Assembly (NCBI GenBank): GCA_034521575.1 | Contig: JAXHMJ010000005.1 | Coordinates: 2,046,001 to 2,110,000 of the forward strand | Reading direction: 5' to 3' | Length of the DNA stretch: 64,000 nt | From: a candidate division KSB1 bacterium | GTDB lineage: Bacteria; Zhuqueibacterota; Zhuqueibacteria; Residuimicrobiales; Krinioviventaceae | In this document: positions 6,371 to 61,067 of the stretch, one piece after another | Position numbering within the stretch: the stretch's first letter is position 1 | Layout: every line of letters begins with the position of its first letter | Notes under the pieces: model-generated | What the model was told of the DNA's origin: nothing | Database searches by the model: none | Seen by the model: the letters and a program-made list of their open reading frames with translations, nothing else | Position numbers and translations under genes: made by a program

Positions 6371-7303
6371 ATGCCTGTATCCATTTCACATTTACTCGGT
6401 CTGGAAGATGTTTCCGCTCAGGATATCGGGACGATTCTGGATACCGCGGAAACATTCAAAGAGGTTCTGGAGCGCCCCATTCCCAAAGTCCCCACGCTGC
6501 GCGGCACCACCGTATTGAACCTGTTTTACGAACCCTCGACACGCACACGCATCTCGTTTGAACTGGCGGAAAAACGTTTAACCGCAGATACGATCAACTT
6601 TTCCAAAGCCACCAGTTCGGTATCCAAAGGCGAAGTCCTGCGCGACACCATCCGCAATATTGAAGCCATGAAAATCGATATGATCGTGGTGCGTCATTCG
6701 GCCGCCGGCGTGCCCCTGTTCCTCACCCAGTGCTCGGATGCAGCTGTGATCAATGCCGGTGACGGCAAGCACGAACATCCTACCCAGGCGCTGTTGGATA
6801 TGCTCAGTCTGCGGCAGAAATTCGGTTCATTAAAAGGGCTCAAAGTGGCCATCGTGGGCGATATTCTGCACAGTCGTGTCGCCGGGTCCAACATTCACGG
6901 ACTTTTAACCATGGGCGCCGAGGTTATGCTCTGCGGTCCCAAAACCCTGATCCCGCCGCATATCCATGATCTGGGCGTATCGGTCTCCTATCAAATTGAT
7001 CAAGCCCTGGAATGGGCGGATGCGGTCAATGTTCTCCGCATTCAGCTGGAACGCCAGAAAAGCGGCCTGTTTCCCAGTATTCGCGAGTATCACGCCCAAA
7101 TTCGGCGTGACGCGCCGCCGTATCGAACAACAGAAAAAGAAATCACCATTATGCACCCCGGGCCCATCAATCGCGGTGTGGAACTCGACAGCGATGTTGC
7201 GGATTCGGACGCCTCAATCATTCTGTATCAGGTGACCAACGGAGTCGCCGTGCGTATGGCTGTGTTGTATCTGCTGGCCAATCCGGAAGGTAAAGTTGAA
7301 TAA
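6371..7303 (+). CDS. pyrB: Aspartate carbamoyltransferase catalytic subunit
   Basis: Second step of de novo pyrimidine synthesis: carbamoyl phosphate plus aspartate gives N-carbamoylaspartate. It has 310 residues. The carbamoyl-phosphate-binding motif FYEPSTRTRISFE lies near residue 55. KATSSVSKGEVLRDTIRN carries the 80s-loop Ser/Lys, and HPTQALLDMLSLRQ, MHPGPINRGVEL and LYQVTNGVAVRMA are all present. It starts immediately after pyrR and is followed twelve bases later by pyrC. There is no pyrI regulatory-chain gene beside it, so the enzyme is probably a class without the E. coli-type regulatory dodecamer. Confidence 0.95.
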   Translation: MPVSISHLLGLEDVSAQDIGTILDTAETFKEVLERPIPKVPTLRGTTVLNLFYEPSTRTRISFELAEKRLTADTINFSKATSSVSKGEVLRDTIRNIEAMKIDMIVVRHSAAGVPLFLTQCSDAAVINAGDGKHEHPTQALLDMLSLRQKFGSLKGLKVAIVGDILHSRVAGSNIHGLLTMGAEVMLCGPKTLIPPHIHDLGVSVSYQIDQALEWADAVNVLRIQLERQKSGLFPSIREYHAQIRRDAPPYRTTEKEITIMHPGPINRGVELDSDVADSDASIILYQVTNGVAVRMAVLYLLANPEGKVE

Positions 7304-7315
7304 ACAGGACGTGAC

Positions 7316-8605
7316 ATGAATTTACAAGCATTGAAACATATCTGTCTGAAAAACGCCGAGCTCGTAGACCCGGTGGCCCACACCCGGCAATCGGCCGATA
7401 TCATTATCAAGAACGGAATCATTCAAGAGATCGGCAAAATTGATTCCTCGTTCTCAGGAGAAAGCGTGGATTGCAGCGGTCAGGTTATCTCTCCCGGACT
7501 CGTTGATATGCACGTACATCTGCGCGAGCCTGGACGCGAGGACGAGGAAACCGTGGAAACCGGCTGCGCCGCAGCCATGGCCGGCGGTTTTACAGCCGTG
7601 CTGCCCATGCCCAACACCGATCCGCCCTGCGACAATCAGCAGGTGGTGCGTTTTCTCAAACAAAAGGCGGAAAAAGAGCTGGTGGACGTTTATCCGGTCG
7701 GTGCGATCACCAAGGGCCGCAAAGGAATAGAAATGGCGGAAATCGCCGATCTGTATCAGGCCGGCGCCGTGGCCTTTTCCGATGACGGCAGCACATCATC
7801 CAACAGCCTGGTGATGCGCTACGCCTTGGAATACGCCAGTATGTACAACGCACCGATCATTGATCATTGTGAAGATCACAAGCTGGCCAATCAGGGACAT
7901 ATGAACGAAGGTGTCATGTCCACGCGCCTGGGCATCACAGGCATACCCAACGCCGCAGAATCCGTGATCATTGCCCGGGACATTGAGCTGGTACGGCTGA
8001 CCGGCAGTGCGCTGCACGTGGCGCACCTGTCCACAGCCGAGGGTGTTGAACTGGTCAGACGCGCCAAACAGGAAGGATTGCCGGTCACCTGCGAGGTGGC
8101 GCCGCATCATCTGTTGTTCACGGACCAGGACTTGACCGGATTTGATCCCAATTTAAAAATGAATCCGCCCCTGCGCACCCCAAAAGACATGGACGCCCTG
8201 ATGCAGGGCATTGCCGACGGCACCGTCGACGTATTCGCGTCCGATCATGCGCCGCACTCGCTGGAAGAAAAGCAGGTCGAGTTTGAAGCCGCACCCTTTG
8301 GTATTATCGGATTACAGAGTATGCTGAGCGTCATCCTTAAAACCGTCGTAGAATCCGGCGCCCTGTCCCTGGAACAGGCCCTAGAAAAAATGTGCGTCAC
8401 ACCGCGTAAACTGCTAAATCTACCGGTCCCACAGATCAAAACCGGAGAACCGGCCAATCTGAGTATTTTTAATCCAAAAGCCAAAACCGTGCTCAGGAAA
8501 CAGGATATCAAATCCCTGTCACATAATTCGCCCTATATCGATATGGAACTTTCCGGAAAGGTGTATGGCGTGTGCAACAAGGGATTGATGTATATAAATA
8601 AATAA
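7316..8605 (+). CDS. pyrC: Dihydroorotase (class I)
   Basis: Third step of pyrimidine synthesis, cyclising carbamoylaspartate to dihydroorotate; 429 residues, the length of the class I (amidohydrolase, PyrC/AllB-like) form. Metal-site motifs are intact: DMHVHLREPG with the HxH pair, AFSDDGSTSS, IDHCEDH, ALHVAHLSTAEGVELV, EVAPHHLL and the catalytic Asp in FASDHAPHSLEEK. Product binding matches MNPPLRTPKDMDAL. In some bacteria class I dihydroorotase associates with the PyrB trimer; the adjacency here is compatible with that. The operon appears to end here, about 100 bases before hypA. Confidence 0.95.
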   Translation: MNLQALKHICLKNAELVDPVAHTRQSADIIIKNGIIQEIGKIDSSFSGESVDCSGQVISPGLVDMHVHLREPGREDEETVETGCAAAMAGGFTAVLPMPNTDPPCDNQQVVRFLKQKAEKELVDVYPVGAITKGRKGIEMAEIADLYQAGAVAFSDDGSTSSNSLVMRYALEYASMYNAPIIDHCEDHKLANQGHMNEGVMSTRLGITGIPNAAESVIIARDIELVRLTGSALHVAHLSTAEGVELVRRAKQEGLPVTCEVAPHHLLFTDQDLTGFDPNLKMNPPLRTPKDMDALMQGIADGTVDVFASDHAPHSLEEKQVEFEAAPFGIIGLQSMLSVILKTVVESGALSLEQALEKMCVTPRKLLNLPVPQIKTGEPANLSIFNPKAKTVLRKQDIKSLSHNSPYIDMELSGKVYGVCNKGLMYINK

Positions 8606-8705
8606 TGCAAGCCCCCTACATTCCTCCAGAACCGCAACCGAACCGCATATTCCGGACCGACTTGCTGCTGACATATTTTTACGAGCGTTAATGACGAGTG
8701 TCTGT

Positions 8706-9059
8706 ATGCACGAAACCGCTATTGCCGGAAACATTATTGACATTGTAACCGAAACCGGACGCCGTCATCCGGATGTGGAAATCAAACGTGTTCGGGTGGT
8801 CATTGGTGAAATGATCGCGGTGGTGCCGGAGTTGCTGCTGCACGCCTATGATTCGCTCATCACCGACACGCCTCTGCAGTATTCAAGTCTTGATCTCACG
8901 ATTATTCCCGTTACCGCAAACTGCAGTCAATGCGATGCATCATTTGGCATCGACGAATTCGAATTTACCTGCCCTTTTTGTCAATCCAGCAGTATTCAAC
9001 TAACGTCAGGTCATGAATTTTACGTCAAAGAAGTGGAGGTGGAACCATGTCCATCATAA
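8706..9059 (+). CDS. hypA: Hydrogenase nickel incorporation protein HypA
   Basis: Nickel chaperone that works with HypB to load nickel into the hydrogenase large subunit; 117 residues. I place the start at the ATG at 8706, giving MHETAIAGNIIDIV. His2 directly after the initiator Met is a nickel ligand in this family, so an in-frame ATG fifteen bases upstream would bury it. The zinc site is two CxxC pairs, CSQCDA and CPFCQS, at about residues 77-97. The end overlaps hypB by thirteen bases. This is the first gene of hypA-B-F-C-D. The 100-base gap after pyrC may hold its promoter, but no strong consensus is seen. Confidence 0.93.
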   Translation: MHETAIAGNIIDIVTETGRRHPDVEIKRVRVVIGEMIAVVPELLLHAYDSLITDTPLQYSSLDLTIIPVTANCSQCDASFGIDEFEFTCPFCQSSSIQLTSGHEFYVKEVEVEPCPS

Positions 9060-9706
9060 CAGTGGAACGCAAAGTGTTGGAAAAAAATGACGAGATCGCG
9101 GCTGTCCTGAAAAAGCAGTTCTCGGATCAGAGAACCGTTGTATTAAACCTGGTAAGTTCTCCCGGTTCCGGAAAAACCACCTTGCTGGAGCAAACCCTGC
9201 AGGCGCTGCAGGGTCAGGTTCGCATGGCTGTCGTGGAAGGGGATGTGCAAACCGATAACGATGCCAAACGCATTGCCCGCTACCATGTACCGGTGGCGCA
9301 AATCGTCACCCACGGCGCCTGCCATCTGGATGCACAACTGGTGCGCGATGCCGTATCCCGGATTGATCTTACGGGTGTTCAGCTGCTGTTTATCGAAAAC
9401 GTCGGCAACCTCGTCTGCCCCGCCAGCTATGATCTGGGCGAACAGCATAAAATTGTCATGGTGTCCACCACCGAAGGCGACGACAAACCTGTGAAATATC
9501 CGCATATGTTTCGGGCTGCGGATCTCTGCATTCTGAATAAAACCGATCTGCTGCCGTACGTTGACTTTGACAAGCATCAATTCCGGAAAAACGCGGAAAA
9601 AATCAATGCAAATCTCTTATTTTTTGAGGTTTCCGCCAAAACCGGAGAGGGATTGCAGGATTGGTGTCAATGGCTGGTTGACGGCACACAAACATCCGGA
9701 AACTAA
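9047..9706 (+). CDS. hypB: Hydrogenase nickel incorporation GTPase HypB
   Basis: SIMIBI-class GTPase that drives nickel delivery; 219 residues. The P-loop is SSPGSGKTTLLEQ at about residue 38. Switch and metal-site residues follow in VEGDVQTDNDAKRI and ITHGACHLDA, whose Cys-His pair is the G-domain nickel/zinc site. FIENVGNLVCPASYDLGE and the G4 motif NKTDLLPYVDFD are also present. The protein lacks both the N-terminal CxxCGC high-affinity nickel motif and a His-rich stretch, so storage capacity is probably low and HypA does most of the handling. It lies between hypA and hypF with short or overlapping spacing. Confidence 0.94.
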   Translation: MSIITVERKVLEKNDEIAAVLKKQFSDQRTVVLNLVSSPGSGKTTLLEQTLQALQGQVRMAVVEGDVQTDNDAKRIARYHVPVAQIVTHGACHLDAQLVRDAVSRIDLTGVQLLFIENVGNLVCPASYDLGEQHKIVMVSTTEGDDKPVKYPHMFRAADLCILNKTDLLPYVDFDKHQFRKNAEKINANLLFFEVSAKTGEGLQDWCQWLVDGTQTSGN

Positions 9707-9709
9707 AAC

Positions 9710-12010
9710 GTGCAGCGCATCAAAATACAGATTCAAGGCGCGGTTCAGGGCGTCGGTTTTCGTCCGTTCGTCTACCGCACAGCCCGCGCTCTCGGACTGA
9801 CCGGCTGGGTGTGCAATGCGCCGCAGGGTGTTACAATCGAAGCTGAAGGTGACATTCGGGCTCTTGAATCGTTTCTGGCCGGTCTTGAATTTGAAAAACC
9901 GCAGCCGGCCAAGCTGTATTCGATTAAACATCAGTTTTCTGATCCGGTGGGCTATAGCGAATTTCATATTCGCAAAAGTACGGCAAAAGGAGACTGTTCC
10001 GCCTGGATTCTGCCGGACATTGCCACGTGTCCGGATTGCCTCAACGAACTCTTTGACCCGGACAACCGGCGCTATCTTTATCCGTTTATCAACTGTACGC
10101 ATTGCGGTCCGCGCTTTACCATCATTGAAAACATTCCCTATGACCGCCTCCAGACCACAATGCGTGAGTTTCGCATGTGCCCGACCTGTCAAAGCGAGTA
10201 TGAGAATCCCGATGACCGGCGCTTTCACGCGCAGCCGAATGCCTGTCCGGACTGCGGCCCGCAGGTTGAGTGGGTCGATACATCCGGTCGGTCGATAGCA
10301 AGCCGAAACGAGGCGATCGCTCAGTGTGTCGAGCTGTTGCGGGACGGCCGGATTGCCGCGGTCAAGGGACTCGGGGGTTTTCATTTGATGGCGGATGCCG
10401 GAAATACCGATGCGGTTCAGCGTTTGCGCCGGCGAAAACATCGCGACGAAAAGCCTTTTGCCCTCATGATGAACGCTGCGGATGCAGAGACCGTCTGCGA
10501 CATCAGCCTGCTGGAGAAAAGCGCGCTGCACGCTCCGGGAGCGCCCATTGTTCTCCTGGCTAAAAAACAGCAGACCTCTGAATGCCATGGCAACATAGCA
10601 GAGAATATCGCCGCGAACAATCCCTGGCTGGGGGTGATGCTGCCGTATACGCCGCTGCATCATATCATTCTTGAAAAATTCGGTCGACCCCTGGTGGCCA
10701 CCAGCGGAAATTTATCCGACGATACAATCTGCACAGATAACCACGACGCGCTGGAGCGTCTGAGCCGGATCGCGGATGCCTTTTTGATGCACAACCGCCG
10801 CATTGCCCGTCACGCGGATGATTCGATCGTCCGGGTGATCAACAACCGACTGGTGGCGCTGCGGCGGGCGCGCGGGTATGCGCCGCTGCCGGTGCGCCTC
10901 CGCCAGTCCCTGCCTGCGGCTGTTTGTGTGGGCGGGCACTTGAAAAATACGGTTTGCGTGGGGTCCGCCGGTCTGGTCTTTCCCAGTCAGCATATCGGCG
11001 ATCTGGACACCCCGCACGCGCTGCAGGCGTTTCATCAAATGATAGACGATTTCAGCCGCTTGTATGACATCACCCCCGACTATATTCTTCACGATGCTCA
11101 TCCGGATTACGCTTCCACCCGGGAATGCATGCAGTTTTCAGGCAAAAAGATCGCGGTTCAGCATCACGTCGCTCATGTTCTCTCCTGCATGGCTGAAAAC
11201 GATGTGGAGCCGCCGGTTCTGGGGGTGGCCTGGGACGGCACCGGTTACGGACCGGACGGCACGGTCTGGGGTGGCGAATGGCTGGATATCAGCACAACCG
11301 GGTATACCCGTGCGGGGCATTTGCGCACGTTTGCACTGCCCGGCGGAGATGTTGCCGTCAAGCAGCCCTGGCGCTCAGCGGTCGGACTGTTGTATGAATT
11401 GTACGGCACAGACACCGAATCCATTCAGCAACTGCCGCCGCTGCAGGCAGTGTCGAAACCAACACTCCGAACCCTCTTGAGTATGCTGAACCGGCGTGTC
11501 AACAGTCCCCGGACCAGCAGCGCCGGACGCCTGTTTGATGCGGTCGCCTCGATCCTTGATATTCAGCACATTAATCACTTTGAAAGTCAGGCAGCTATGG
11601 CACTGGAACACCTGGCCTGGAGAAACAAACATACAGACGGCTATGATTTTGACATCCGATTTGATGAAAATCGGCAAACCTGGGTGCTCGACTGGCAGCC
11701 GATGATCCACAGGATAATCAACGACGATCAGCAGGGCGTATCGCCGGGCCGGATCGCCGCCGGTTTTCACAACACATTGGCAGAGATGATCGTCACTATG
11801 GCGCAAAACATAAAACAGCCGAAACTCGTGTTGAGCGGCGGCACCTTTCAGAATCGATATCTGAGCGAACGGGTGCAGGCACGGCTCGAACAAGAAGGAT
11901 TTCAGGTCTATACGCATCAGCAGATACCGCCCAATGACGGCGGCATCAGTCTGGGTCAATATGCGGCATTGACCTTTCAACTCGAACCCAAAGAGGTCGT
12001 ATGTGTTTAG
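9710..12010 (+). CDS. hypF: Carbamoyltransferase HypF
   Basis: Makes the thiocarbamate on HypE from carbamoyl phosphate and ATP, the source of the cyanide ligands of the [NiFe] centre. It has 766 residues, full length, with a GTG start three bases after hypB. Domains in order: acylphosphatase-like (GAVQGVGFRPFVYRTARALG, 1-90); paired zinc fingers (CPDC, CTHCGPRF, CPTC and CPDCGP, about 105-185); YrdC-like (LGGFHLMADAGN onwards, 200-380); Kae1/HypF carbamoyltransferase domain with AVQHHVAHVLSCMAEN, GVAWDGTGYGPDGTVWGGEW and a late LSGGTFQNRYLSE. All key motifs look intact. Its end overlaps hypC by ten bases. Confidence 0.96.
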   Translation: MQRIKIQIQGAVQGVGFRPFVYRTARALGLTGWVCNAPQGVTIEAEGDIRALESFLAGLEFEKPQPAKLYSIKHQFSDPVGYSEFHIRKSTAKGDCSAWILPDIATCPDCLNELFDPDNRRYLYPFINCTHCGPRFTIIENIPYDRLQTTMREFRMCPTCQSEYENPDDRRFHAQPNACPDCGPQVEWVDTSGRSIASRNEAIAQCVELLRDGRIAAVKGLGGFHLMADAGNTDAVQRLRRRKHRDEKPFALMMNAADAETVCDISLLEKSALHAPGAPIVLLAKKQQTSECHGNIAENIAANNPWLGVMLPYTPLHHIILEKFGRPLVATSGNLSDDTICTDNHDALERLSRIADAFLMHNRRIARHADDSIVRVINNRLVALRRARGYAPLPVRLRQSLPAAVCVGGHLKNTVCVGSAGLVFPSQHIGDLDTPHALQAFHQMIDDFSRLYDITPDYILHDAHPDYASTRECMQFSGKKIAVQHHVAHVLSCMAENDVEPPVLGVAWDGTGYGPDGTVWGGEWLDISTTGYTRAGHLRTFALPGGDVAVKQPWRSAVGLLYELYGTDTESIQQLPPLQAVSKPTLRTLLSMLNRRVNSPRTSSAGRLFDAVASILDIQHINHFESQAAMALEHLAWRNKHTDGYDFDIRFDENRQTWVLDWQPMIHRIINDDQQGVSPGRIAAGFHNTLAEMIVTMAQNIKQPKLVLSGGTFQNRYLSERVQARLEQEGFQVYTHQQIPPNDGGISLGQYAALTFQLEPKEVVCV

Positions 12011-12252
12011 CCATACCCGGTAAAATTCTCAGTATAGAGGGCAGTGATCCGGTCACACGCAAAGGCCGCGTCAGTTTTGACGGTGTGGTCCGGGAGGTGC
12101 ATCTCGGTTATGTCCCGGACGCCAAACCCGGTGATTACGTGAATGTTCACGTTGGTTTTGCCATCGGTGTGCTTGATGAACAGGAAGCCAAAGAAATCTA
12201 CGGGATTCTGGACGAGATCGAATCGATCACACAGCAGCGGAAACGCCAATGA
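12001..12252 (+). CDS. hypC: Hydrogenase assembly chaperone HypC
   Basis: Small chaperone of 83 residues that carries the iron precursor with HypD and binds the large-subunit precursor. It starts MCLAIPGKI. Cys2 after Met removal is the essential ligand, and the [20 protein letters not shown] middle and [12 protein letters not shown] stretch are typical. It overlaps hypF upstream and hypD downstream (ATGA), so the three should be made in step. Only one hypC/hybG-type gene is present in the window. Confidence 0.95.
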
Positions 12253-13334
12253 AACGCGACCAGCCCTTTCGTGATGCCGACGTCGTCAAACGTTATATTC
12301 AGGCCATTCATGATATCACGGATCAGCCGTGGACCATCATGGAAATCTGCGGGGGACAAACGCACGCCTTCCTGCGCCACGGGATCGACACCCTGCTGCC
12401 GCCGGACATCACCCTGCTGCACGGACCCGGCTGTCCGGTTTGCGTGACGCCCATTGACAAAATTGACAAAGCCATAGAACTGGCCCAACAGCCGGATATC
12501 ATGTTGTGCTCGTTCGGCGATATGGTGCGCGTGCCCGGCAGCCGGGAAGACCTGCTGTCCGTCAAATCCCGGGGCGGCGATGTCCGCATTGTCTATTCAC
12601 CCACAGACGCCCTCAAGCTGGCGCGCCAGCATCCGGACAAGCAGGTGGTGTTTTTCGGCATCGGGTTCGAGACCACAGCGCCGGCCAATGCCATGGCTGT
12701 GCTGGGGGCGCAATCGGAACAGCTGAACAATTTTTCCGTATTGACCTCGCAGGTGCGGGTGCCGCCGGCCATCCGGGCGATCCTTTCTTCGGACGACTGC
12801 CGTGTAAACGGTTTTCTGGCTGCCGGACATGTGTGCACGGTGATGGGCTATCACGAATACACCCCCCTGGCCAAAGCGTTTAAAACCCCGATGGTGGTCA
12901 CCGGATTCGAACCGGTCGATCTGGTGCAGGGCATGCTGATGTGCATCCGGCAGCTGCGGGAAGGTCGTTACGAGGTGGAAAATCCGTATAAACGGTCGGT
13001 GACCGAGGCCGGAAACCGGCCCGCGCAGCAAGCATTGCTGAATGTATTTGAACGCGTCGATCAGACCTGGCGGGGGATCGGGGTGATCCCGGACAGCGGA
13101 CTGGCGCTGCGCGACCAATATGCCGCGTTCGACGCGGAAAAAAAATTCCAATTGAAAAACATGTCCATCCGGGAAGAAACCGACTGCATGTCCGGTCTGG
13201 TGCTGCAGGGACTGAAAAAACCGACCGATTGTCCCTGTTTCGCCGATTCCTGCACCCCCGAGCATCCCCTGGGCGCCACCATGGTGTCATCGGAAGGGGC
13301 GTGCGCGGCGTATTATCGGTATCGGAAACGCTGA
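12249..13334 (+). CDS. hypD: Hydrogenase iron-cyanide assembly protein HypD
   Basis: Scaffold on which the Fe(CN)2CO group is built; 361 residues. It has the N-terminal [17 protein letters not shown], the redox CxxC in [11 protein letters not shown] (about residues 60-70), and the C-terminal cluster region [20 protein letters not shown] that binds a [4Fe-4S] cluster. It is the last recognisable gene of this hyp operon. hypE, whose product is the partner of HypF, usually follows hypD but is missing. The sequence right after the stop is non-coding and runs into an AT-rich decayed segment, so hypE may have been lost from here or may reside elsewhere. Confidence 0.96.
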
Positions 13335-13639
13335 ACCCTTCTGCTGTATTCGGCAAGTGGTTTTACCGCGCTTCCGGTCGGTTACCGTAGCCTCGACCGT
13401 GGTGTTTTTCGTCGTTTGGACGACAATGCCGCCTTTCGGCAATGTAGGATAATGATCGCGCGGGGTATCGGAATTATGATAACGATGATTGATTAATTTT
13501 TTTCTTGCATAGTATCCGGAAAATACATACAATGCCAATGCAGGATCATCTGTGTCAACGGGGCAGTACATATCTGACACAGGGTTCATAGGATGTTTAG
13601 ATTCCTTTTTTGGTACATTCGTTAGCATGCAAAAAATTA
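13335..13639 (+). other. Intergenic stretch after hypD, no supported gene
   Basis: About 300 bases between hypD and the TolB remnant. The first half has the GC-rich composition of the hyp genes; from roughly 13470 it turns AT-rich. A short hairpin (TGCCG at 13427-13431 pairing with CGGCA at 13437-13441) is the only clear structure. An open frame on the minus strand covers most of the stretch but shows no recognisable motif and overlaps the hypD end, so I do not call it. Confidence 0.5.
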
Positions 13640-13903
13640 TTTAGTTCAGCTGTGGTCGATAATATGGGGTAATAGTGAATATAAATTTATATAATGAATT
13701 CCGATTGTTCAAATCTGCGTTTACTAACAACAAAAGGTTACTATCCATCTTTTTCACCTGATAGTAAGTGGGTGGTTTACACGAATACAGACAGCAGGGA
13801 TGGGCGTATATGGAAAACAAGTGTGACAGGAGGTGAGAAAATAGCCGTTACTCCGCCGGCTCCGGATAGTTATTTTGATGAACATGATAATTCACCGAAA
13901 TGA
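13640..13903 (+). pseudogene. Remnant of a TolB-like (PD40) lipoprotein gene, internally deleted copy
   Basis: This segment is a collapsed copy of the TolB-like gene at 16636-17555. Bases 13640-13687 match about 16858-16910, with a few substitutions and a five-base loss. The sequence then jumps to the match with about 17338-17555, at a shared TTTAT. The encoded tail (SPDSKWVVYTNTDSRDGRIW) is a TolB/PD40 beta-propeller repeat. No signal peptide or start region remains. It ends twelve bases before the subtilase start and now acts only as that gene's upstream flank. Confidence 0.8.
13694..13903 (+). repeat. Direct repeat, copy 1 (partner at 17346-17555)
   Basis: About 210 bases that match 17346-17555 essentially base for base, apart from a TG/GG-type difference near 13706; offset 3652. 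It encodes the last TolB-like repeat and stop codon of the lipoprotein gene. The near-identity implies a recent duplication. Confidence 0.92.
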
Positions 13904-13915
13904 AAGGAATTTAAA

Positions 13916-16307
13916 ATGAAGAAAACCTTTGTTTTAATCTTATGCTTAGCATTTAGTGCTTTCAGCGCTGAAAAAGAAATGAAAAAAAAACTGATTATCC
14001 ACCTTAAAAAACCTATTATAAAGTTATCAGATGCAAAAAGTGAATTTACTTTAAACGCTATTAAAATAAGTGATGAATCTCTAAAGAAAACTTTGGATGA
14101 ACTGGACATTCAAACAATTAAAAGAACTGTACCATCTTTTAAGATGGAAAATCATACCAAAGAAAATCTAAATAACAAATTTTTTCAAATATCAGATCTG
14201 TCATTAATCTATACAATATCATTTAAACCGGATATTAGTAAAATTGAAGAATATAAAAATGCTTTATCAAAACTTGATAATATAAAAATGGTTGAATTTG
14301 TATATCAATATGAAAATACAGATGAAACGATCATTCCTAATGATGATAGATTTAAATATACTGATAATAATTCAAATGGTGTGTATAATTTTGGAACTGA
14401 TACTCCAGGGAGGCAATGGGGATTATTTGATTACTATGTGTCCAATCCTCAGAACAGAGCTGATGTTTCTATGCCTGAGGCCTGGGATTTTTCAACCGGA
14501 TCATCAAATATTAAAATAGGATTTGTAGAATCAACTTCATCGGCATATGAGGGTGATCCAATAAATGGTATAACAGAATTGAAGGGGCGTAATTCAGGAA
14601 GTAATGGTGTTAGTTGGGGTGATAATAGTCATTCTGTAGCAACAGCAGGCATTGCCATTGCCAATACAAACAATGATCATCTGGTAGCAGGTGTAGATTG
14701 GAATGCTAAATATTATTCGGCCGCGCATGGAAATAATTCTGAAGAATTTGCCTCCGCAATACAATCCTGTGTAAATGAAAATTGTAATGTAATCAACAAT
14801 AGCTGGTCAATAGAAGCGGGTAATGATGGTTCATATAGTACAATGTTAGCAATAAGAAATGCTTTATTTTAATGGTTCATTCGTAGTTGCTGCTATGGGT
14901 AATAATAACGGGTCTCAAGATCGAGTACCTGCCTGCTATTCTGATATTGTTTTTTCTGTGGCATCGGCTAATAAAAGCAATAACTATTCAAGTTTTTCTA
15001 ACCATAATTCTTATGTGGATGTAACAGCACCGGGCGGTACAAATTCGTCGTCCCAATACGATGATATATGTGTTATTACTGGTGATGATGATGTTGATTA
15101 TATGTATGGTACTTCTTTTTCTACTCCTTTAGTTTCAGGTGTTGCAAGCTTGATGATGAGTATGCGCGAAGATGTCAGAGCGGAAGATGTCGAATATATT
15201 TTAAAACACACTGCCGATGATATTTATTTAGCTGGTTTTGATAATTTTACTGGTTATGGCAAAATTAATGCTAAAGAGGCAATTCGCAGACTATCTTCAA
15301 TATATAATATGGAAAGGTATACAACCAACGGTGGAACAATTATCCAAGTTGATAACGACTGGAAAACCTTTGTTCTTTATGCAGATTTTTATACTTGTGT
15401 TGCAAAAAAATATAGAATTGAGAAGAACATAAGTTTTAATAATTATAATCAAAGTACAATTTTGATATGGGGAAATATTGACGGTACTCTTGGTGTTGCT
15501 CCATCAAATCCAAATTATCAGATACCATGGTGTGGAGTAAAAGAGGGGACAATTACATCTTCCAGTGCAACGATTCAGACATATGTTTATAAATGTAAAG
15601 AACTTTATTACCCTTATCAAACTTTCTGGTATCCATGTGAACCCTCGGAAGTTGAATTTGCCTATACAGTGCTTGGGGATCCTCCGCCTTCAACACCATC
15701 TATATCTCTTGGCACACAATGGGATCCAGATATGCATATTAATCATCCTAAATTAACAATTACACGAGGTAGTGAAGATACTGATGAATATAATATATAC
15801 AGAATGAAAAATGGTTCCAGTTTTGATGTGGTGGCTACGATTAGTTGCTCTGGTACAACAACTACATGGGTGGATGAAATAATAATGTCTACACAATACT
15901 ATGGTGATAATTGGTGGTATAAAGTAAAGGCCAAAGATGATTTTGGAAGTGAATCAGATTTTAGTAATACTGTATATACCAAGGGAGTTCAGGTAGATTC
16001 ATCAATGAATAAAGACGAGCCAATTACGCTCGAGATACCCGAACTACCCTCTGGATATTCACTTTCTGCATTTCCAAATCCCTTCAATCCTACAACAAAT
16101 TTTAAAATTGGCTTACCAGAAGCAGGTAATGTAAAATTATCAGTTTATAATTCTATTGGACAGAATGTTTTTAAATTCGATGAATATCGCGAGGCGGGAT
16201 ATCAAAATATTGTTTTTGAAGCAAAGAATTTAAATGCCGGCGTATATTTTTATCGGTTAAATGTAAAAAATTATAGCAAGAGTGGAAAAATTTTATATGT
16301 AAAATAA
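13916..16307 (+). pseudogene. Secreted S8 subtilisin-like protease with T9SS-type tail, frameshifted
   Basis: The gene reads in two frames, 13916-14872 and 14859-16307, joined by a one-base insertion in the T runs at 14863-14870. Removing one T gives a continuous protein of about 796 residues. Parts: signal peptide (MKKTFVLILCLAFSAFSA); prodomain; S8 catalytic domain; a fibronectin-like region; and a C-terminal FlgD/T9SS sorting domain (FPNPFNPTTNFKIGLPEAGN, then GVYFYRLNV). The catalytic His (NSHSVATAGIAIA) and Ser (GTSFSTPLVSGVASLM) are visible. The position of the catalytic Asp reads IGFVESTSS, so Asp appears replaced by Glu. The AT-rich codon use contrasts with the hyp genes. Frameshift plus triad change make an active protease doubtful. 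Confidence 0.85.
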
Positions 16308-16635
16308 AAACTGCCTGCTAAATTAGAATATTCAAAAAAATATTCTGAGCAGACCGGCTCACCAGCAGGCAGTTCAAAGACCACTAGTCAGTTTATGGTT
16401 AATGGCCTTTACTATTTTAGGTCTCCTGAAAAAATCATTTTACAGCATTATGGGCTCGTAATACAGCCAAACTCGTTTTTTGACATGCATAAACAGCCGA
16501 ATTAACCGCTTTCTAAAGCATGTCCTGATAGGCATAAAAAAATAATGTCGGAAAAAATGAGTTGTATTCATAATATATCACATTTAATTTATAGTAACCT
16601 ATAAAAATTATAATTCAATTCAATTAATTAAGTTT
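16308..16635 (+). other. AT-rich non-coding spacer with inverted repeats
   Basis: There are 328 bases between the subtilase and the next TolB-like gene, with no supported gene. It holds the nested inverted repeat listed separately. It also has a looser pair, GACATGC (16482-16488) and GCATGTC (16518-16524), that could fold into a second hairpin. Most of the remainder is A/T-rich. Confidence 0.55.
16309..16374. repeat. Nested inverted repeat just after the subtilase stop
   Basis: AACTGCCTGCT (16309-16319) pairs perfectly with AGCAGGCAGTT (16364-16374). Inside the loop AGAATATT (16325-16332) pairs with AATATTCT (16339-16346). It starts a few bases after the stop codon, so it may work as a terminator or 3' end stabiliser. 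However, the right arm is followed by CAAAGACC rather than a T run, so it is not a standard Rho-independent terminator. Confidence 0.6.
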
Positions 16636-17555
16636 ATGGAAATTATGAAATTAAACTGTTTTTTCCTGTTTTTTATATTTCTTCTTTCTTGTAACCAGCC
16701 AACCGATAATAATAATGAAAGAGATTCACCCTCTTTTATGAAGGATGTGTGCCCAATTTGGTCCCCAATTACAAATAAAATCGCTTATATTCATGGCGGA
16801 AAGATTACAACTCCTGGTGTTTATTTAATCAACCCGGATGGGTCGAATAATCATTTATTATTTAGTTCAGTTGTGGTTGATAATATAATATGGGGTAATA
16901 GTGAATATGAATTTATTTTCGATGCTTACAAGCAAATCTGGTGGTACAATTATGAAACGGGCAGTTCTTTTCAAATTACCAATACTCCAGGAGGAAATTT
17001 TTTCCCGTCACTTTGTCCAAATGGTAAATTCAGTTCTATATTCAAAATCAATTGGTTCGGATAATTATAAAGCGTGGTATTTGGAAAATAAATACAGATG
17101 GAACAAAAGATCACCTTTTAATTGAATATGGTACGCAACCTTGTTATATGGCCGATGGAAAAATGTTTGTTTATTGTGATTATGCTGATAGAGCGCAAGT
17201 ATATAAATATTTTATTAACGATAGTAGTTTAGAAAATTTGACAAATATGAAGTGGAATTGTTTACTCCCCAAAGTTTCTCCCGATGGTAAGCTAATTGTT
17301 TTTATGCACTATGCAAACTATTTGGATTACTATAATATTTATATAATGAATTCCGATGGTTCAAATCTGCGTTTACTAACAACAAAAGGTTACTATCCAT
17401 CTTTTTCACCTGATAGTAAGTGGGTGGTTTACACGAATACAGACAGCAGGGATGGGCGTATATGGAAAACAAGTGTGACAGGAGGTGAGAAAATAGCCGT
17501 TACTCCGCCGGCTCCGGATAGTTATTTTGATGAACATGATAATTCACCGAAATGA
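16636..17555 (+). pseudogene. TolB-like (PD40) lipoprotein, two frameshifts
   Basis: It begins with a lipoprotein signal (FFLFFIFLLSCNQPTD, Cys at the lipobox), then PD40/TolB propeller repeats such as VCPIWSPITNKIAYIHGGKI and SDGSNLRLLTTKGYYPSFSP-type units. The reading frame must change twice, near 17026-17036 and near 17065-17078, to connect the parts; the repaired protein would be about 305 residues. The last 210 bases are duplicated at 13694-13903. Relatives are periplasmic or surface propeller lipoproteins of unknown binding partner. It is followed 22 bases later by another gene of the same type, so the locus was probably a small tandem family. Confidence 0.75.
17346..17555 (+). repeat. 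Direct repeat, copy 2 (partner at 13694-13903)
   Basis: The 3' end of the TolB-like lipoprotein gene, matching 13694-13903 almost perfectly. The sequences diverge right after the shared stop codon (AAATGAAA), so the repeat boundary is the gene end. Confidence 0.92.
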
Positions 17556-17577
17556 AAAAAGAGGATGGGTAATCACC

Positions 17578-18175
17578 ATGAAGGCTACCACAATATACAC
17601 ATTACTCTTTCTGCTGCTTTTAACTGTAGCATGCCATGTAACCGAACCGAACAAGAAGGCTCACCGTAGACCTGATAATGAGACGATTGCATGTGTTTCA
17701 GACTTGGTGATATGGCTTCGTCTGTTGCAATCACATATAATTGTCAAGAATTGATTAATCTCAAAACACGAGGTACGTTTTATGTGGACTGGTCGCCAGA
17801 TAAAACGATGCTTGTCTATTGCAAACATTATAATATTGAAAACGGGATACGGGTTGAAATCTGGACAATGAATTCCGACGGATCAGAACAAAAGAGGATA
17901 AGTGGAACCGATACGTTGTGCTATTTTCCTGAATTTTCCCCCTCGGGAGATAAAATCATGTATACAGCTACAAACCGTTTTAGCACACGAATCGTGGTGT
18001 GCGATGTGAATGGTAATTTCAAAAAAACGGCGCTCACCTCGTTTCAGGCCACAAACATCGATACAAGCTGCGTGTACGGTATGGACTGGAAGAATGAAAG
18101 TGAGATCATATACAACTACTGGGGTAGAGGAATGACCGGGTATATGAAGGCAGCCTCTTATAAAATAAACAGTAA
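17578..18175 (+). pseudogene. Second TolB-like (PD40) lipoprotein, frameshifted and 3'-truncated
   Basis: It starts with a lipoprotein signal (TIYTLLFLLLLTVACHVTEP) at 17578, then shifts frame near 17690-17700. It continues with two PD40 repeats, visible as YVDWSPDKTMLVYCKHY with WTMNSDGSEQKRISGT, and FPEFSPSGDKIMYTATN. The propeller stops abruptly near 18175, where the sequence joins the middle of a TonB-dependent receptor gene. About half of a normal TolB-like protein remains. Base composition is intermediate between the AT-rich island and the GC-richer receptor. Confidence 0.72.
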
Positions 18176-20389
18176 AGAACATTTTTCATTGGCGTTTCTG
18201 ATGTCAATATCTATACACCGGACTCCAATCGGGGGGCAGCCTCGGACTCGACCGGTCGGTTTACACTCACGCTTCCCGGCGGGGCTCACAGGCTCTGTTT
18301 TGCGCATGTCGGCTATGAAACAAGGTGTCTGCAGGTGGTCGCGCATCCGGATTCCCCGGCTGTGATACCGGATGTGGCATTGACAGCACGGGTGCTTGAG
18401 GGCAAACAAGTCAGTGTGCAGGCGTACGGAGACGTTGCCAAGCTCGACCAGTATGAGGTATCAGGCGCCCGGGCGGGACGACCACCAATCCCCTGCCGGA
18501 ATCCGCTTTTAACGTTAAAGACGCTGCCGGGGGTGTGGTCGGTCAATGATCAGAGCGGCAAGTTTCAGGTGCGGGGCGGCAGTTACGATGACAATCTCAT
18601 TGTGATCAACGGTGTCGAGATCGAGCAGCCGCATCTGGTGCGCAAGGGCGTGATGGAAAATCCCTCGCTGATCAATCCCTATCTGGTGGACGCCATCAAA
18701 CTGAGAACCGGGGCGTATCCCGTGACCTATGGCGACCGTCTTGCCTCGGTTCTGGATGTCACTTACCGGAAAAACGACAGTCAACAATGGAGCGGCCAGG
18801 TCAATGTGTCCATGGTCGAAGCCGGCGTCGCTCTGTTTTCACCCGAATCCGAAACCTTTAATTTCAGCACCTCTGTCAGGCGCATTGACTATGGCCATAT
18901 CTACAAATCACAGCACCGGCAGGGAGAGTACAACCCGGATTTTTACGACTGGCAGAGCCTGTTCAGCTGGAACCTGTCAGACCGGCACAAATTCAGCGGA
19001 TACGCCGCACTGGCGCGCAGCCGTTACCGGTCAGAGCCTTCGAGTGTGAAAGCGGTGCCCGGTTTCCCCGAGGCTCCGCAATACAGCATCCATGAATCAG
19101 GACAAGAACGCTTTGATCACAATACGGGTGTTTTGGGGATTCAGTGGAACGCGGACTGGACCAAGAGCTGGTCCACGCTGGTGAAATCCTCCATCGTTGT
19201 GCAAAACGAACGCGAAGACACCCAATTGTATACGCAAATTATACCCCTTGATGACGAAGAACTGCCGGATTCCGCTCTGACACTGGACGGGCGCCGGGAA
19301 TCCTATGACAACGCGTTTACCCACCGGCAGGTTCACGTTCATATGCGAACCCGATTCCAAACTCCGCTTCAGCAATTGATATTCGGGGTCGAAGGCCAGT
19401 GGCTGAATCAGGACCTTGATGCGGATGAAGCGGTGTCCGGCAATTATCAGCTGCCGGGTGATGCGGTCGGTCCGGTTCAGCAGGATATTCTCTGGAACAC
19501 CTCAGGCACCGCCTGTTTTCTGCAGTATCAGCGCGATCTGTCCGCTCTTTTCAAAATAAATGCGGGCGCGCGACTGTTTCGTTATGCGTTTAACAAAGAG
19601 ACGGTGTTCATGCCGCGCCTCGGATGCCGATACCGGGTGACGGATCACACAGAGACGGCGTTTCATATCGGACGCTATGCACAGCCGCCGTTGTACAGGG
19701 AAATCCAACACGTACCGCTTCAAGACCGGCCTGCGTTGAAAGCCCAGAAAGCCTGGCAATCCACACTGAGCCTGCGGCAGACACTTCCCAACCGGCATTA
19801 TGTGCAGATGGAAGTTTACTATAAAACAATGAGCGACCTGATTTCCTATGACACCTATGATGTGCGCACCCTGTATTCCGGTCAAAACGACGCCAAAGGC
19901 TATGCCTACGGTCTGGACGCCATGCTGTTCGGAGAGTTTGTCCCGGACTGTATCAACTGGATCAGTTACGGATATCTGATCGCCAAAGAAGATCTGATCT
20001 ACGATTCCGAGGGCTGGGTGAACCGGCCGTCCGCACAAACGCATACCCTGAGCTTTAATCTGCAGGACAAGATGGAGCGCTTTCCGGGATCACGCATGCA
20101 TTTGCGCATTCTCCTGGGAAGCGGATCATACTATACGATTTATTATTCAAAAGACGACGAAATACTGACATCTGCCCGAAACGCGGGACGGCTGCCTCTG
20201 TATCAACGGTTTGATCTGGGACTGACGCAGCGGTTTACGTGGAAGGGATTTAAATTTACCTTCAAAGAAGAAGTGCTGAACATGTTTGATCACACCAATG
20301 TGCTGAGCGCAAGCTGGTTTGAAAACACGCTTGTCAAAACCTATCTGAGCGGCATCAACTACAATGTGGGAGTCCGGGTGGAATTTTAA
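18176..20389 (+). pseudogene. TonB-dependent receptor lacking its 5' end
   Basis: An outer membrane receptor for uptake of an unknown ligand. The frame is open from 18176 to the stop at 20389 (about 737 codons) but has no ATG, signal peptide or first strand of the carboxypeptidase-regulatory-like domain. The domain is entered part-way at GVSDVNIYTPDSNRGAAS and continues with STGRFTLTLPGG and FAHVGYETRC. The plug follows (LTLKTLPGVWSVNDQSGKF, QVRGGSYDDNLIVINGVEIE), then a long beta barrel ending in F (NYNVGVRVEF). The only early start would be a GTG at 18335, after the regulatory domain. That would yield a receptor without export signal, so the gene is most likely non-functional or the product of a recombination joint. 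Confidence 0.82.
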
Positions 20390-20614
20390 GAGCTGTCTCT
20401 ATATGTTTGCTTTTTATGTTGGATAGCGTTGGCGTGAAGCGATTCAACGACATCACTGTTAAAAGGGAATTAACTAAAATTCAGGTCAATAAAGAAAGTA
20501 ATTTGGTTTTCTCTTGTTTTGCTCTGCGACCTCTGCTCCTCGTGCGTGGGGACAAGCTTGAACTCGACCGCGAAACAAAACCAATACGATTGTGTGCATC
20601 CGGAATCTTTTTTT

Positions 20615-22882: not shown

Positions 22883-22977
22883 AAGCCCTCTCAATCCTTT
22901 TTGATCAACAATATACAATAGAGATGATCCTTATGCAAGCCCGGCAAAGCCAATTTAATCCATTCATGAAATAGAGG

Positions 22978-23006
22978 TTGTTTGAACGGGATAGTTTTCG
23001 TATAAT
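22978..23006 (+). promoter_or_regulatory. Orphan consensus-like promoter
   Basis: TTGTTT (22978-22983), a 17-base spacer and a perfect TATAAT (23001-23006), pointing right. No plus-strand gene follows for about 900 bases; the next feature is a minus-strand gene at 23104-23496. If used, it would make a non-coding or antisense transcript. Confidence 0.35.
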
Positions 23007-23103
23007 AATTTCAAGAATGACAGTGAACCCAACAACGGTCTGTGTCTGTAATTTGTACAATATTGATGATATTCGTTTATGTTTGTAAAATTCCCATGCA
23101 GAG

Positions 23104-59181: not shown

Positions 59182-60824
59182 TCAGGCTTTCGGACATTCG
59201 GCGGCAATATCTTTCTCTACTTTGCCGGCAAAATTTGCTTCAAAATGGCCTTTAAATTTTTCAGCCAGCTTTTTAGCTGTACTTTCAAATGCCTCTTTAT
59301 CAGTCCAGGTATTGACCGGATTGAGAATATCAGCCGGAACATTCGGACAGGACTGCGGCACCAACACCTTGAATATGGGATCCGGCTTGAAATCGACAGG
59401 GTCGAGCTTACCGTTCAGAGCCGCGCGCACCATTGCGCGTGTTAAATTGATATCAATCCGATGGCCGACACCATAGGCACCGCCTGTCCAGCCGGTGTTT
59501 ACGGTGTAAACCTGAACGTTGTATTTTTTCATTTTATCACCCAAAAGACCAGCGTAATCAGAGGGGTTTCTCGGCATGAACGGTTCACCAAAAAACCGGG
59601 AAAACGTGGCCTGGGGTTCTGTTACGCCCGTTTCCGTTCCTGCCAATTTGGATGTATAGCCCATAATGAACCAAAACATGGCTTGTTCCGGTGTCAATTT
59701 TGCGATCGGCGGCAATACGCCGTATGCATCTGCAGCCAGAAACAAAATGGTGCTTGGATGTCCGGACGTTGAGGACTCTTTAATATTGGAATTATAGCAA
59801 AGGGGATAAGAAGCCCGGGAGTTGGGAGTAAACCTGTCATCATTGAGATCAAATGAACCATCAGGATAAACCATTAAATTTTCGACCATGGAACCATGCT
59901 CAAGATAGTGGTCCGGGTGAAAAGTCGCGTGAAATATATCCGGTTCCTTATCCGGATTCAAGTTAACGAGTTTCGCATAGCAGCCGTTTTCAAAATTGGC
60001 GATTCCGTTTTGATTCCATCCGTGTTCATCATCCCCCAAAAGAGATCGTTCAGGATCAGCGGATAATGTGGTTTTTCCGGTTCCCGACAACCCCAACAGC
60101 ATGGCGCTTTTTCCATCAGGTCCCTCGTTCGCAGAACAATGCAAAGGAAGAATATTTTCCCGGGTAAATAATAATTCATAACCGTAAAAATCAGCTTTTT
60201 CATGGATCCCATATAGGCGGACCCGTAGACAATCCCGATTCTTGATTCAAAATCCATAGCCACACAAATGGTGGAGGCGCCGCCGTCCGACAACGTTCTC
60301 AGTCTGTTCTCATAGCGTTTTGATTTGAGGTAATCACAAGGCAGCGCCAAAAGTGTAAATGGTTTGTCTACAAAAATACTCTTTTCGATATCGTTTGGTA
60401 CGGGACGGAACATATTATCAGTGAACAGCGCACTCAAAGGATTATCGGTCACGGTCAATATGGGCAGTGCGTAATCGGAATCCGCTCCAACCACACGCTT
60501 CAGGGCATAAATCCTGTCTTTAGATTTCAATGTGCTCAAAGCATCCTGAAACACCATTTCAAATGTATCCGGAGCCAGCTCGATACAGTTTGGCGAGCTC
60601 CAGTCAATATTATCAGAGGTTCCCGGTCGTTTTACCAGGTAAGTATCCATAGGGCTTCTTCCGGTAGAATGTGCAGGAGTCCATGTGGCCAGAGTTCCTG
60701 TATTCAGTACAATGGCACATCCCGATGCCACGGAATCATTGATCATCTTTTTCCTGGCCGGGTTGTTGTACACCTGATTCACATCATTGAGGATTCCACA
60801 GACTTGTTCTCGATACGATTCCAT
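59182..60824 (-). CDS. pckA: Phosphoenolpyruvate carboxykinase (ATP), interrupted by one frameshift
   Basis: Converts oxaloacetate to phosphoenolpyruvate in gluconeogenesis. The gene reads in two frames, starting at the ATG at 60824 (AGGGAG site) and ending at 59182. They join if one T is restored near 60166-60171, where the coding strand reads TATTATTT; the repaired reading is NYLFTRENILPLHCSANEG and gives about 547 residues. All motifs are then present: RSPMDTYLV, AYMGSMKKL, GLSGTGKTTLSADPERSLLG (P-loop), GDDEHGWNQNGI and NTGWTGGAYGVG. A single lesion in an otherwise perfect central-metabolism enzyme suggests a sequence error, or very recent inactivation. Confidence 0.88.
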
Positions 60825-61067
60825 TGACTGCTCCCTATGTTTTAGAATACCCGAATAGCACCCCATGCTTGACAAAATTCATTTGATCGGTTCAAAACAA
60901 TCCGATGCTTAACAACCCACGTAGAAATACAAGGCTTTAACGGGACATTGGAAAGAACAGCTAAATATCTCATTTTTCCCAGCTAAGAAAATAGCCAATT
61001 TTCACAATAAACACAATCTTTTTTTAACATTTGCTCCGGGGTGTTCAAGTACAAGACTATAACAGGT

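Follow-up and report, generated by a model that had tools for sequence, protein, structure and literature searches.

What placed a subtilase gene between two almost identical direct repeats, and do these repeats mark the ends of a mobile block or the remains of a local accident? The question is raised by the following features of the window, by which we mean the whole 64-kb stretch of DNA analysed.

13636-13690, + strand: 5′ scrap of a propeller gene in the left copy, with its counterpart at 16857-16916
13685-13690, + strand: ATTTAT microhomology at the deletion junction, where 426 nt of the parent are absent
13685-13905, + strand: left direct repeat, 221 nt, the 3′ end of the propeller gene including its stop codon; holds a 69-aa ORF, 13694-13903
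13916-14872, + strand: subtilase (S8) gene, N-terminal part in a first frame, starting 10 nt past the end of the repeat
14859-16307, + strand: subtilase gene, C-terminal part in a second frame, carrying a T9SS type A sorting domain
16309-16374, + strand: branched inverted repeat directly past the subtilase stop, terminator-like
16636-17555, + strand: parent PD40 propeller lipoprotein-like gene with two frameshifts (ORFs 16636-17064 and 17052-17555)
17337-17557, + strand: right direct repeat, 221 nt, within the parent propeller gene
17578-18182 (ends approximate), + strand: second propeller lipoprotein-like gene with one frameshift, its 3′ end missing where the gene joins the TonB receptor
18192-20389 (start approximate), + strand: TonB-dependent receptor, about 45 N-terminal residues missing relative to its nearest relative

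The broken copy and its deletion junction

Self-alignment of the window by BLAST, the check proposed by an earlier sequence-only reading of this DNA, returned only two blocks of homology. The longer one pairs 13685-13905 with 17337-17557 at an offset of 3652 (221 nt, one mismatch), so that the near-identical repeats of about 210 bp described in that reading were recovered in slightly longer form; with an E-value of 6e-111, for an alignment to which the aligner adds six columns, a chance match is excluded. The shorter block pairs 13636-13690 with 16857-16916 (86.7% identity in 60 alignment columns; three substitutions and an indel of 5 nt) and corresponds to the 5′ scrap that had been matched to about 16858-16910. 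At 13685-13690 the two blocks meet in the 6-nt word ATTTAT, common to both donor blocks and containing the TTTAT noted before, and the parent stretch missing from the left copy amounts to 3652 - 3226 = 426 nt, close to the 430 bases first estimated. The broken copy, 276 bases in all, is thus joined at a short identical word of which a single copy has been retained, the mark of a microhomology deletion. When junctions were placed at random within the same AT-rich segment (200,000 draws for each scheme), 0.2% of the draws with the same spacing and 0.3% of those with random spacing gave 6 nt or more of homology. In a search of the whole genome (five contigs, 5.26 Mb), the matches of the left copy were confined to these places.

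The homology of the left copy stops two bases past the stop codon, where a plausible ribosome-binding site for the subtilase adjoins it and the subtilase start follows; the boundary of the right copy lies at the corresponding base, with the second propeller gene coming next. The two blocks have diverged unequally, with four changes in the 55 nt of the 5′ block (the three substitutions and the indel) against one in the 221 nt of the 3′ block, a difference with a Fisher p of 0.026 for substitutions only and 0.0065 with the indel, in a post hoc comparison of five changes in total. The sole mismatch between the repeats is a T at 13706 opposite a G at 17358, which gives D-C in the left copy and D-G in the right; the latter pair is usual in the PD40 repeat motif. 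Since the right-hand gene reads through to its stop codon and retains this usual D-G, the right copy is the parent.

By eye, the parent gene begins with a lipoprotein-like signal sequence, followed by PD40 repeats, and is readable in three frames, indicating two frameshifts. Its ORF 17052-17555 scored 35.2 bits with PD40 (PF07676), above the gathering cut-off of 20.9, whereas the 69-aa ORF of the left copy scored 18.8 bits and fell under it. The earlier label 'TolB-like' holds as a name for the fold and fails as an assignment to TolB itself, the gene scoring 63 bits with the NCBIfam TolB model (TIGR02800) against a curated cut-off of 343.15. It is well supported that the left copy represents an incomplete duplicate of the propeller gene, with 426 bases deleted from its interior at a short microhomology.

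A decaying segment on a rearrangement junction

The subtilase gene between the repeats is itself split by a frameshift. Both of its pieces contain Peptidase_S8 (PF00082; 32.6 and 80 bits, cut-off 21.8), and a Glu aligns at the expected catalytic Asp of solved subtilases in phmmer alignments that are weak (E 0.015 and 0.21), making the activity of the protein doubtful even if the frameshift is left aside. The hairpin behind the gene is predicted to fold with -31 kcal/mol (z -5.0, for 16295-16400), and the inverted repeat occurs once in the genome. Counted by eye from the reading frames, the subtilase and the two propeller genes together carry four frameshifts in three genes within some 4.3 kb of this segment. 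In the rest of the window, pckA (59182-60875, - strand) is split into two reading frames, which points to a residual assembly error or a pseudogene; in a non-exhaustive Pfam census of 20 further ORFs of the window, no family was found split and three ORFs had no family match. Because pckA and hypE (see below) are broken as well, some of the frameshifts in the segment may be residual sequencing errors. Such errors would hardly account for the gene truncations or for the deletion of 426 nt.

GC content is 0.32-0.42 over 13481-18200, against 0.53 and 0.59 just outside, and the AT-rich segment was probably acquired laterally. To its left, hypD ends at 13334. To its right, the TonB-dependent receptor begins inside its first domain; its nearest relative, at locus L044 (41% identity over 285 aligned columns), has the roughly 45 extra residues ahead of the point where homology starts. 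hypE was searched for in 12 genomes, namely this one and 11 relatives. Seven of the 11 relatives had hypE over the family cut-off, at eight loci, and the other four had none over it. At seven of these eight loci hypC, hypD and hypE are contiguous, with the hypD match directly upstream of hypE; the eighth, an additional hypE in one of these genomes, has no hypD match. Here, in contrast, hypE lies on a different contig from hypD and is frameshifted. The broken link between hypD and hypE, together with the 5′-truncated TonB receptor, places the segment on a rearrangement junction. A reciprocal junction was sought, and no piece of the segment was found in the 18 kb that surround hypE on contig C1.

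Several further repeats were recorded in passing. An 80-nt repeat is shared, at 85% identity, between 22969-23046 of the window and the upstream region of hypE on contig C1. Near hypE lies a direct duplication of 2.27 kb with 99.1% identity (L065:1010-3275 and 7298-9566, contig C1), and at 3.9-5.1 kb of the same locus there is a repeat-bearing gene in several frames. Neither an Rfam match at gathering score, over 12000-20500, nor a tRNA gene, in the whole 64-kb window, was found.

How the left copy may have arisen

We consider the left copy likely to be a remnant without function, left by duplication, a 426-nt microhomology deletion and probable gene conversion in a decaying, probably acquired segment. 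A duplicate of the propeller lipoprotein gene, or of its 3′ part, would have been placed immediately before the subtilase gene; it would then have lost its 426 internal bases through slippage or end joining at ATTTAT; and the 221-nt 3′ part would have stayed, or later become, near-identical to the parent, probably through gene conversion. The setting would be the decaying, probably laterally acquired AT-rich segment at the rearrangement junction of hypD and the truncated TonB receptor. The denser changes in the 5′ block suggest either a subsequent gene conversion or template switching prone to error. We infer this order of events, as we do the gene conversion and the lateral origin.

The second of these options leads to another explanation, in which a one-step templated insertion, made by replication template switching, copied about 55 nt of the propeller gene, slipped forward by 426 nt at ATTTAT and resumed for a further 221 nt, making errors close to the junctions. 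Such an event would account for the two blocks, for the microhomology and for the concentration of changes in the shorter block, but gene-scale events agree better with the end of the copy, which lies two bases past the stop codon and beside a plausible ribosome-binding site of the subtilase. From sequence alone, templated insertion and gene-scale mechanisms are indistinguishable, and we regard the insertion as rather unlikely.

The sequence-only reading had proposed a tandem duplication followed by deletion. Its second half, a microhomology deletion in the duplicate, is borne out; a plain tandem duplication encompassing the complete subtilase block is not. Direct orientation and a 3652-nt period are what would be expected had a unit of propeller and subtilase genes been duplicated and had the second subtilase and 426 nt of the first propeller gene then been lost. 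No second subtilase, spacer or other shared sequence was detected, however, by self-BLAST of the window or by DNA searches of the genome, in which the segment and the spacer each matched a single place, and this, together with a copy boundary on the scale of a gene, argues against a tandem duplication of a 3.65-kb block. It would also require a further deletion with an endpoint immediately after the stop codon, and it predicts equal divergence of the two blocks where unequal divergence is observed. We therefore judge it unlikely.

Single-crossover integration of the Campbell type, by a circle carrying a propeller gene, would likewise yield flanking repeats and a hybrid left copy, and the geometry is suitable, the left copy being joined to the host side and the right copy to a second gene of higher GC content (0.40-0.42 against 0.33). 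Against it, no integrase, replication gene or circle-borne relative was recognised. Protein scans with the C-terminal parts of the propeller gene and the subtilase found no relative among genome contigs; the subtilase had no match in the phage and viral collections, and its partial matches among plasmids, three records that aligned with 17-18% of the query each, had 31-41% identity. We hold such an integration to be decidedly unlikely. At the DNA level, the region 13300-18600 had matches in only two of 29 relatives, in three stretches of 75-91 nt from the sorting-domain region, and no ancestral or empty site was found among the relatives searched.

A reading of the block as an integron cassette or other mobile element was rejected, no recombinase gene or attC-like repeats having been found around it: none of seven scanned ORFs, from the segment and the receptor, contained a recombinase domain, and the strict attC core consensus was absent from the window and from 12 loci of the same genome, including those that carry the 121-nt repeats described next. 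These palindromic direct repeats, 99% identical (L033:6423-6543 and 7817-7937, at about 1.092-1.094 Mb of contig C5), flank an intact paralog of the PD40 lipoprotein gene (L033:6628-7572); they resemble integron attC sites or MITEs. The repeat occurs at eight places in the genome and has no match in the window, and it was therefore not used to explain the broken copy. At L033:8964-10990, a tyrosine recombinase (XerA- or integron-integrase-like, below cut-offs) adjoins an IS91 family transposase.

That the repeat is an assembly artefact, for which the possibly residual errors in pckA and hypE might speak, is scarcely credible, because the copies differ in one base, in both flanks and by a structured 426-nt internal deletion with microhomology at its junction, and 221 nt is short relative to common read and fragment lengths. 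Most likely, the feature represents ordinary genome decay, a deleted duplicate in a decaying, AT-rich and probably acquired segment.

Recombination potential and known counterparts

With 221 nt and a single mismatch, the repeats are long enough to recombine in a RecA-dependent manner, and a deletion of 3652 bp including the subtilase, by recombination between them, is plausible, as had been suggested before. We find it very improbable that the repeats act as a switch, with homologous recombination removing or amplifying the protease block in a fraction of the population while the propeller relic serves as a leader of the subtilase. What the locus offers is a clear example of a gene duplicate that has been shortened at a microhomology, leaving near-identical repeats on either side of a neighbouring gene, and a caution against taking such repeats for the termini of a mobile element; the evidence shows no wider consequence.

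The propeller genes share with PD40 and TolB-like beta-propeller proteins (PF07676, TIGR02800) the PD40 repeats with their N-S-D-G motif; unlike TolB, the gene here lies far under the TolB cut-off, has a lipoprotein-like signal sequence and is frameshifted. With T9SS-sorted subtilases (Peptidase_S8 plus Por_Secre_tail), the neighbouring gene has in common the S8 domain and the type A sorting domain, but it is split by a frameshift and has, in a weak alignment, Glu at the position of the catalytic Asp. Short-junction deletions, in which one copy of the shared word is kept at the junction, are known from bacterial genomes. The broken copy resembles them in its internal deletion with one retained junction word, and differs in that its deletion sits in a duplicate.
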